A DNA stretch of 64,000 nucleotides from Candidatus Gastranaerophilales bacterium. GTDB taxonomy: Bacteria; Cyanobacteriota; Vampirovibrionia; Gastranaerophilales; Gastranaerophilaceae. How positions within the stretch are numbered: position 1 is the stretch's first letter; every line of letters begins with the position of its first letter. The DNA is taken from assembly GCA_944324865.1 (NCBI GenBank), contig CALUXW010000001.1, positions 186,001 through 250,000 on the forward strand, written 5' to 3'. Both the position numbers and the translations under genes were made by a program. Below are positions 5,290 through 8,086 of the stretch, in pieces. Under the pieces are notes generated by a model. The model did no database searches. It saw nothing but the letters and a program-made list of their open reading frames with translations, and was not told where the DNA came from.

Positions 5290-5335
5290 TTTACAAAGTA
5301 CCAAAAATATAGTAAAATTATTAAAAATGTGAGGG
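5290..5335 (+). promoter_or_regulatory. Promoter and ribosome site of the GT6 gene
   Basis: TTTACA (5290-5295), a 17-base spacer and TAAAAT (5313-5318) make a good sigma-70 type promoter. GAGGG at 5331-5335 is the ribosome-binding site 4 bases before the ATG. Unlike several neighbours, this gene has a normal leader. Confidence 0.6.
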
Positions 5336-5339
5336 AATT

Positions 5340-6134
5340 ATGAATATAGGCATATTATATATTGCAACAGGCAGATATATTTGCTTTTGGGATGAGTTTT
5401 ACAAAAGCGCAAAGCAGTATCTTTTTCCTGGGCACAAAGTAAAATACTTTATATATACCGATGCGCCAAAAATTAATTATGAAGAAAACGACGATGTAAC
5501 TAAAATTTTTGCACAGTCATCAAACTGGCCTATAAGCGTATGTGATAAATACGCAATTTTGCTTAGCGGGCGAAAACTATATGAAGAACTAGACTATATT
5601 TTTCACTTTAATGCAAATATGAAATTTATTGCACCAATTGGGGATGAAATATTACCTAGTAAAGATAATGGCTACATTTGCGTTGGAGAATGGCTTAACC
5701 ACAAGCTTAAATCTACTCCTGACAAATTTCCCTATGAAAGAAACCCTCAATCTCTCGCTTATATTCCTGTCGGCAAAGGTACACATTATTTTATGAGCGG
5801 TGTACACGGCGGAAGAACAAAAGAATACATAGCCATGTGCAAAGAGATAGAAAATAGCATAAGAAAAGATTTTCAAAACGGAATAATAGCTATTTGGCAT
5901 GATGAAAGTCATTTAAACAAATACATGTTAGATAAGAACCCTCTCATTATCCCGCCACAGTATGCAATTCCTGAAAATTGGAAATATAAAGGATACACAA
6001 AAAACCGAAAGGGGTTACTATTAAACAAATTGCACTGGAAATACGGCGGACATTCTTACTTAAGAGGAATTACAGATAAGAAAATTACACCCCTAAAATA
6101 TTGGATTACAAAAATTACAAATATTAAATTTTAA
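5340..6134 (+). CDS. Family 6 glycosyltransferase (ABO/alpha-1,3-Gal(NAc) transferase-like)
   Basis: A 264-residue homologue of the GT6 family, which includes the vertebrate blood-group A/B and alpha-1,3-galactosyltransferases. Seen: the opening IGILYIATGRYICFW, YFIYTD at 36-41, the WHDESHLNKY signature at 187-196 and PENW at 211-214. The vertebrate metal-binding DxD is replaced by N91-A-N93, the change known in bacterial GT6 enzymes, which act without a metal ion. There is no signal or membrane anchor, so it is cytosolic. It would add alpha-1,3-linked Gal or GalNAc to a surface glycan. It converges on the GT8 gene with overlapping stops (TTAA). Confidence 0.93.
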   Translation: MNIGILYIATGRYICFWDEFYKSAKQYLFPGHKVKYFIYTDAPKINYEENDDVTKIFAQSSNWPISVCDKYAILLSGRKLYEELDYIFHFNANMKFIAPIGDEILPSKDNGYICVGEWLNHKLKSTPDKFPYERNPQSLAYIPVGKGTHYFMSGVHGGRTKEYIAMCKEIENSIRKDFQNGIIAIWHDESHLNKYMLDKNPLIIPPQYAIPENWKYKGYTKNRKGLLLNKLHWKYGGHSYLRGITDKKITPLKYWITKITNIKF

Positions 6135-7060
6135 TAATTAAATTCCATTGATTTAACAATGCGCATAAAATTTTTCTTTCTGTCATCTTTTAAGAAAAAA
6201 ATGGGATACATTTTAAAAAACCACAAAAATTGACAAAATCTACAGTGCATAAAAAATGTAATATTTTTAATCAAAATTTGTTTTAAATCGGATGAAAAAG
6301 GTGTTGACATGTAGTATTTCCAAAACATCTCTCTATAGTTGTTATAAAAGCCGATTTTCCAAGGTTTAGTACCTGCAAAATGAACAATGGCAGGATTAGA
6401 ATTATTTTTAAAATAAAAATTAGGAGTAATGAAATTAAATTCTCTACCCATTTTCTTAACATGACCAAGCAGGACCGCATTCATTACATCTTGATCACAA
6501 TAGCTGAGTTTTTCCCAATTATTGCGCAAATAATCAAACATTTTATTCTCGACATTATTCTCGCGCATTTTTTCAAGATCCAGCAGGCATACTCCTGCAT
6601 TAAAATAAAAATTTGAACATGAATTTTCAAGATTCATTCTTAACATATGAGCATCTTGAGCTAAATCAGGAACACAGGCTGCATACTGATTTGCACTCAA
6701 CTCGCAGAAATAAATAGAACTAAGCGAACTTAATACAATTATGTCGCAATCAAGATACAAAACTCTCTTTACATCAGGCAATAAACTAGGTAACTTTAAC
6801 CTGTATAATGTTGGAATAGTAACATTAGTACAAACACCATTATAAAAATAGGGCTCAAAAAGAGAATTGTCAAGCTTGTGAAAAATAATATTGCCCATGC
6901 TTTTTAATTTTTCAATATTAGTCGTTGACAAGTTTGAATATAAAATATGAAAAATGATATCTTCATCATTTTTTTTGTTTTTCAAAGCACTATAAATAAC
7001 AACTGCAGCATACTTTGCATAGTTATCATCAGTAGATAAACATAATTCTAGCCTTTTCAT
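6131..7060 (-). CDS. Family 8 glycosyltransferase (LgtC/WaaJ-like)
   Basis: A 309-residue retaining hexosyltransferase of the GT8 family. Diagnostic pieces are the N-terminal LCLSTDDNY, the donor/metal motif D104-C-D106 in RVLYLDCDIIVL, FNAGVCLLDLEKMRE, the YCDQDVMNAVL segment, and the late HFAGTKPWK that contacts the donor phosphate. Relatives add galactose or glucose to lipopolysaccharide cores. The C-terminal 70 residues are basic and aromatic, as in GT8 enzymes that sit on the membrane surface. No Shine-Dalgarno precedes the ATG; an extended -10 lies 6 bases upstream. Its stop overlaps that of the GT6 gene. Confidence 0.93.
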   Translation of the reverse strand: MKRLELCLSTDDNYAKYAAVVIYSALKNKKNDEDIIFHILYSNLSTTNIEKLKSMGNIIFHKLDNSLFEPYFYNGVCTNVTIPTLYRLKLPSLLPDVKRVLYLDCDIIVLSSLSSIYFCELSANQYAACVPDLAQDAHMLRMNLENSCSNFYFNAGVCLLDLEKMRENNVENKMFDYLRNNWEKLSYCDQDVMNAVLLGHVKKMGREFNFITPNFYFKNNSNPAIVHFAGTKPWKIGFYNNYREMFWKYYMSTPFSSDLKQILIKNITFFMHCRFCQFLWFFKMYPIFFLKDDRKKNFMRIVKSMEFNY

Positions 7061-7099: not shown

Positions 7100-8086
7100 A
7101 TGGAATTAAGCCCAAAAATTAGTGTCATAATGCCCGTCTATAATACTGCCGAAAAAGATTTTAAAGAGGCGATAGAGAGTATTTTAAACCAAGATTTCAG
7201 TGACTTTGAATTAATTATAATTGATGACTGTTCAAAGGATTATATTAGAAATATTGTAGAAGGTTATAATGATAAAAGAATAATTTATTTAAGAAATGAA
7301 AAAAATCTTGGTCTGGTGGGAACTCCAAATAGGGCTTTAAAAATTGCAAAAGGGAAATATATTGCAAGGATGGATTCTGACGACATTTCAAATCCGCAAA
7401 GACTTAGAGTGCAATTCGATTATATGGAAAATAACCCGCAAACAGACATCTTAGGTTCATCATTTATAAAAATTCCAAAAAATGAAATAATAAACTTTCC
7501 AATCGACAATGAAAAAATAAAATATACAATGATTTTTTCCCACAACTGCATTTGTCATTCAACTGCAATAATAAGAAAATCAACAATGGACAAATATGAC
7601 ATCAAATATGATGAACAAAATGATGTTTGTGAAGACTATGGACTATGGCTAAAACATATTGAAGAACTGACCTACCATAACCTACAAGACGTACTGGTAA
7701 AATACAGATGGTACTTAAGTAATACATCAAAAAGAAAAAAAATGATTCAAAGTGCAGGATCGCAAAAACTCATGTTTAATGCTCAGGCAAAACACTTTAA
7801 TATTAATTGTGACAAAATTATTAAAAGTATTGAAAAATACTGTAACAACAAAGTTGTTACTTCAAAAGATTTGATAGAAATTATCAATTTCATATTACAA
7901 ATAAAAGACTTATTAAATAAAGAAAACCCACAAGCAGTATACAATGTTAACAGAGTATTTTTCAAAGATTTTCTTAGAAAATGTATTAGCGATATTACTT
8001 TTATAAAAATTATTTTTTCAAAACAGCTTGATAGTATTATTAAATTGACATTTTTTGAAAAAATTGGCATGATTATAGGTTTTTAG
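7100..8086 (+). CDS. Family 2 glycosyltransferase
   Basis: A 328-residue GT2 enzyme. It shows the standard GT-A features ISVIMPVYNT (8-17), IDDCSKD (41-47), and the DxD-like MDSDD at 91-95, followed by a C-terminal domain of about 100 residues of unknown type rich in Lys/Ile. It has no transmembrane segment. Relatives build O-antigen or capsule repeats. It lies divergently from the GT8 gene with AAGGAAAG as ribosome site. The three enzymes together (GT6, GT8, GT2) look like a small surface-glycan set. Its TAG stop overlaps the uvrC stop in the tetranucleotide TTAG. Confidence 0.9.
   Translation: MELSPKISVIMPVYNTAEKDFKEAIESILNQDFSDFELIIIDDCSKDYIRNIVEGYNDKRIIYLRNEKNLGLVGTPNRALKIAKGKYIARMDSDDISNPQRLRVQFDYMENNPQTDILGSSFIKIPKNEIINFPIDNEKIKYTMIFSHNCICHSTAIIRKSTMDKYDIKYDEQNDVCEDYGLWLKHIEELTYHNLQDVLVKYRWYLSNTSKRKKMIQSAGSQKLMFNAQAKHFNINCDKIIKSIEKYCNNKVVTSKDLIEIINFILQIKDLLNKENPQAVYNVNRVFFKDFLRKCISDITFIKIIFSKQLDSIIKLTFFEKIGMIIGF

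Follow-up and report, generated by a model that had tools for sequence, protein, structure and literature searches.

Does a gut bacterium that belongs to a cyanobacterial branch without photosynthesis cap its surface sugars with a blood-group-like structure, and has the gene for doing so come from an animal host? The question is raised by a glycosyltransferase gene in a 64,000-nucleotide stretch of a Gastranaerophilales genome, referred to here as the window. Among named records, the close relatives are Candidatus Gastranaerophilales genomes, including Candidatus Galligastranaerophilus intestinavium, and the host genus is one that includes Candidatus Galligastranaerophilus. The features on which the argument draws are as follows.

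5331..5335, + strand: GAGGG, a Shine-Dalgarno-like sequence 4 nt ahead of the ATG (direct reading)
5340..6134, + strand: GT6 glycosyltransferase gene, 264 aa (Pfam PF03414 125 bits; BoGT6a E 2e-51; AF2 model)
5610..5618, + strand: codons of N91-A92-N93, replacing the DxD metal site (direct reading, alignment)
5688..5708, + strand: acceptor loop E117-L123 (EWLNHKL), with W118 at the position of the BoGT6a acceptor contact H122 (alignment)
5793..5801, + strand: donor-selectivity triad M152-S153-G154, equivalent to human 266-268 (alignment; human rule from PMC4202792)
5895..5924, + strand: WHDESHLNKY, holding E189, the equivalent of BoGT6a catalytic E192 (reading, alignment)
6131..7060, - strand: GT8 glycosyltransferase in convergent orientation, with a 4-bp overlap at the GT6 stop (Pfam PF01501 132 bits)
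7100..8086, + strand: GT2 glycosyltransferase (Pfam PF00535 116 bits)

The open reading frame extends from an ATG at 5340 to a TAA that ends at 6134, has no internal stops, and scores 125.2 bits (E 3e-36) on the CAZy GT6 / Pfam PF03414 (Glyco_transf_6) profile, for which the curated threshold is 25. When the protein was searched against the PDB, the best match, at E 2e-51, was BoGT6a from Bacteroides ovatus (PDB 4AYJ, 4CJ8), which synthesizes blood group A without a metal ion, followed by the ABO transferases at about 1e-26. The motifs ATGRY (residues 9–13), NAN (91–93), WHDESHLNKY (186–195), and PENW (211–214) can be read directly. By these sequence comparisons the family match is far above chance, in agreement with the coordinates, family and motifs assigned in an earlier note on this DNA, and the gene is a genuine bacterial GT6. 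Its score against the NCBIfam subfamily model NF041524 (Gltr_6), 237.5 bits, is slightly under the curated 250, and the protein is not placed in that subfamily.

An AlphaFold2 model, for which the input was an alignment of 43 relatives, reached a pLDDT of 95.3 and a pTM of 0.91 and superimposed on BoGT6a with bound UDP-GalNAc at a TM of 0.92 by target and 1.5 Å, with 39% sequence identity. The top PDB structural matches were all BoGT6a, followed by ABO and alpha3GT, which points to a GT-A fold of the GT6 type. The BoGT6a residues that contact UDP-GalNAc are known from structural work (PMC3961637) and are mostly retained, as its T10, Y13, W66, N95-A-N97, E192, K231, and R243 are matched here by T10, Y13, W63, N91-A-N93, E189, K230, and R242. 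The catalytic Glu of WHDES and the Lys stabilizing the UDP leaving group are thus present (E189/K230 aligning to E192/K231), and the donor-site and catalytic residues are conserved across the genus. The earlier note had placed N91-A-N93 at the DxD position; asparagine occupies both ends of NxN in 15/15 genus members, and since NxN marks metal independence in published GT6 enzymes (PMC3961637), the enzyme is most likely metal-independent. Human GTA and GTB share the family, the fold (TM about 0.7 by target) and an identical WHDESHLNKY, but they carry DVD where this protein has NAN, are only about 26% identical to it, and have a transmembrane stem that it lacks. Compared with BoGT6a, the protein is extended at its C-terminus by about 18 residues, the last of which are predicted to form a helix.

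The sugar-binding pockets are less conventional. In the human enzymes, Met266 favors Gal (B) and Gly268 belongs to the A type (PMC4202792); the triad here, MSG against AGG in BoGT6a, combines a B-like M152 with an A-like G154, so that the donor cannot be called from the sequence. For the ABO row of this alignment, it should be noted that 3SX7 is an engineered A/B chimera and that 3SX8, of the same sequence, is titled ABBA. Further donor-side changes relative to BoGT6a are R73 to K70 and T70 to V67 in 13/15 genus members, and N69 to S66; BoGT6a R73 touches the donor sugar. A Met at the human 266 position, together with the membership of alpha3GT in GT6 and its activity without fucose, could be taken to mean that the enzyme makes the linear alpha-Gal epitope (Gal-alpha-1,3-Gal). 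We regard this as the least likely product and as very improbable, the bovine alpha3GT triad being HAA rather than MSG and the association with GT11 described below indicating fucosylated acceptors.

On the acceptor side, the His and Thr expected of a histo-blood-group A/B synthase are absent, and because W118 and P131 replace BoGT6a H122 and T134, we do not class the protein as an A/B synthase. Proline at the latter position is common among other bacterial GT6 proteins. At the former, all 15 genus members and the sister GT6 sequences L142–L144 have tryptophan, which is confined to this W118 clade in the alignment; 63/81 other bacterial and viral rows have His. Such fixation gives some weight to a reading in which GalNAc or Gal is added to a bacterial sugar lacking any blood-group structure, in an acceptor site rebuilt around W118; the absence of any GT11 gene from the GT6 locus in the genus also speaks for it. 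We consider it a serious but distinctly less probable account than an A/B-like product. GT11 is retained in all 15 genus genomes, and since the W-type relative G017 has a GT11 gene about 1 kb from its GT6, the Trp by itself does not rule out a fucosylated acceptor.

GT11 is an alpha-1,2-fucosyltransferase family, which makes the H structure (PMC4202792). Within a 98-genome sample, GT11 was found in 22/22 GT6 carriers and 12/76 non-carriers; leaving out the genus, the counts were 7/7 and 12/76 (p 1.2e-5, uncorrected for relatedness). A further set, for which GT11 was expected beforehand, gave 7/9 GT6 genomes against 1/18 controls, or 7/9 against 1/9 with the nine fresh controls only (p 0.015, again without correction for relatedness). 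Two of those nine further genomes, G165 and G185, have GT6 but no GT11, which counts against an A/B-like product. In 9/16 GT6 genomes from outside the genus the two genes share a contig and lie about 3 kb apart at most, although glycosyltransferase genes tend to cluster in any case. An alignment query against IMG/VR viral contigs found 115 GT6 places, of which 80 were kept (L048–L127), whereas a single-protein query against viral contigs gave no GT6 match; GT11 flanks GT6 within 4 kb in 41 of these 80 partly redundant viral loci, and it is also present in the flanks of 30 of 80 named loci.

The two domains are moreover fused in single open reading frames, in both orders, in a Kuenenia (L205), a member of the Planctomycetota (L192), and one of the Alphaproteobacteria (L179). 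These frames lie at L205:2008-3738, L192:6998-8629, and L179:870-2570, and may be one-protein H-to-A/B synthases. Co-occurrence and fusion together accord with transfer to an H-type (Fuc-alpha-1,2-Gal) acceptor, the product being of A/B type and carried by lipopolysaccharide (LPS). Within the genus, every genome has at least one GT11 gene and that of the window (G000) has two, of which one has an HxRRxD motif; a GT11 gene of G000 lies at C12:39828-40709. GT11 was never found inside the GT6 locus in these genomes and lies elsewhere in the genome, a separation that weighs against an A/B-like product. The idea that an H-type acceptor is missing for want of a nearby GT11 was discarded once a search at genome level turned up GT11 throughout the genus. 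A published parallel is E. coli O86, where WbnI (GT6) and WbwK (GT11) form a B-antigen O-polysaccharide (PMC4202792); likened by description, it also pairs GT6 with a GT11 alpha-1,2-fucosyltransferase in one genome, but in the Gastranaerophilales genome the GT11 lies elsewhere.

The window's genome contains gmd and galE, and the presence of LpxC in 5/6 and KdtA in 6/6 of the genus genomes tested indicates that the genus makes LPS. On this combination of observed family membership, predicted fold, conservation, synteny, GT11 co-occurrence, and LPS genes, we suggest that the gene product is probably a retaining alpha-1,3-glycosyltransferase of the cytoplasm that needs no metal and that, with GT8 and GT2, would build the outer part of LPS with an A/B-like end; its choice of donor and acceptor, its product, its location, and its independence from metal are inferred. 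UDP-GalNAc or UDP-Gal would be held by T10, Y13, W63, the N91-A-N93 turn, and K230/R242, and E189 would aid retaining transfer to a galactoside, probably fucosylated (Fuc-alpha-1,2-Gal) by the product of a GT11 gene at another place in the genome. Together with the adjoining GT8 and GT2, the enzyme would probably assemble outer LPS or lipo-oligosaccharide, with LPS as the presumed carrier, and probably cap it with alpha-1,3-GalNAc or Gal, so that an A/B-like terminal structure might be displayed at the cell surface. Against this account stand the altered contacts relative to BoGT6a, at the acceptor (H122 to W118, T134 to P131) and at the donor (R73 to K70). Of the A-, B- or alpha-Gal-like epitope once proposed for this gene, a surface A/B-like product thus gains indirect support from GT11 co-occurrence, the fusions, and the LPS genes of the genus; confidence in naming it A, B, or alpha-Gal is weakened by the Trp at the acceptor His and by the mixed donor residues, and an alpha-Gal product would leave the GT11 association unexplained.

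The GT8 and GT2 neighbors that had been noted beside the gene were upheld by their Pfam matches. GT8 adjoins GT6 in every genus genome with an intact locus, while no homologue of the GT2 at 7100-8086 was found in the genus genomes G001, G003, G008, and G013. Throughout the genus GT6 lies between the blaI side and GT8, with uvrC farther out (in G011 and G012 the locus runs into a contig end). GT6 also occurs near blaI in two further genera, represented by G055 and G052, and in G055 the GT2, GT8, and GT6 genes are grouped beside blaI at about 39–42% identity. In G016, a genus-mate of G055, GT8, GT6, and an NDP-sugar epimerase are missing between the same flanks, so that the gyrA-to-blaI interval gains or loses these genes between species of one genus (L038:5904-10321 compared with L246:7125-8782). 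Because G055 and G052 share a blaI-side GT6 and G016 has the flanks without these three genes, we conclude that the blaI-side interval is a variable glycosyltransferase site that has become fixed in the window's genus. Two other proposals were set aside: uvrC as a family-wide marker of a conserved glycosyltransferase site, as its neighborhood changes outside the genus, and an LPS-core role for the extra GT2 of G055, G052, and G016, suggested by a likeness seen by eye, which was left unnamed as its NCBIfam matches are weak and generic.

As to where the gene came from, GT6 is present at a single syntenic site in 15/15 sampled genus genomes and is rare in the wider class (13/374 other genomes). 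A tree of 101 rows placed the genus in a single clade with support 99, with G017 (95), G055/G052 (86), and G070 of another family (90) as successive sisters. Since GT6 is genus-wide at one syntenic site, it has been inherited vertically in place within the genus and was very probably not acquired recently from a host. Recent acquisition from an animal host or another gut bacterium would find a basis in the patchy class-level distribution (21/382 genomes), in a second GT6 lineage (G025, G029, G037) that falls near Moraxellaceae and apart from the genus clade, and in the frequency of GT6 in marine viral contigs. For this genus we nevertheless consider it highly unlikely, in view of the genus-wide synteny, the nesting within Gastranaerophilales GT6s at support 86–99, a G+C content of 33% against 32% for the window, and NxN in place of the vertebrate DxD. 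The host-bacterium exchange suggested earlier is therefore not borne out as a recent event, and patchiness starts only outside the genus. The sole vertebrate segment in the tree is a long branch amid phage sequences, and the tree thus gives nothing firm on a vertebrate origin.

Split GT6 matches were seen in G352 (C63:1850-2511) and G293 (C21:29885-30533); the former contains stop codons and both look broken. The abundance of GT6 in viral contigs recalls the Prochlorococcus phage P-SSM2.

The GT6 family is already known; what is new is a member in a lineage for which a literature search of incomplete coverage found no published report of GT6. Most of the bacterial GT6 enzymes known so far belong to Gram-negative species in other phyla (PMC3961637). 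With GT6 present throughout a genus of gut Vampirovibrionia, there is a further candidate for a natural source of the bacterial antigens believed to prime anti-A and anti-B antibodies. The co-occurrence and fusion of GT6 with GT11 further yield a straightforward and testable criterion for telling which GT6 enzymes of bacteria use fucosylated (H-type) acceptors, and the W118 clade provides a natural variant for studies of acceptor choice.

Within the genus, GT6 alleles move between species. G008 and G013 are 91–99% identical in GT8, uvrC, gpmI, rsmH, and folP but only 68% identical in GT6, which suggests replacement of the GT6 allele in place in G008, G013, and G003. A constrained topology joining the GT6s of these three genomes in one clade was not rejected (AU test, p 0.17), so the claim of allele swapping rests on the contrast in identity and not on topology; the core and GT6 trees are both incompletely resolved. 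From that contrast we conclude that GT6 alleles evidently recombine between species of the genus. One might tentatively go further and picture an entire genus of gut Gastranaerophilales with a conserved GT6-capped fucosylated LPS end, made through a rebuilt Trp acceptor pocket, that presents a blood-group-related yet distinct epitope, and with alleles swapped between co-resident species as a means of surface variation, although we hold this fuller picture to be rather doubtful.

In the alleles of the close genomes G008, G013, and G003 (L028, L034, L023), a third of the residues differ while the neighbors are 87–99% identical. Close pairs show purifying selection on GT6, with dN 0.02 and dS 0.39 for G003 and G013. 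The G011 gene (L031:6785-7353, L032:8662-9011) looks mosaic, with a tract of about 93–100% DNA identity to G006 inside a window-like gene; its two contigs join at an exact 127-bp overlap, and because this overlap resembles an assembly k-mer, the mosaic allele may be an assembly chimera.
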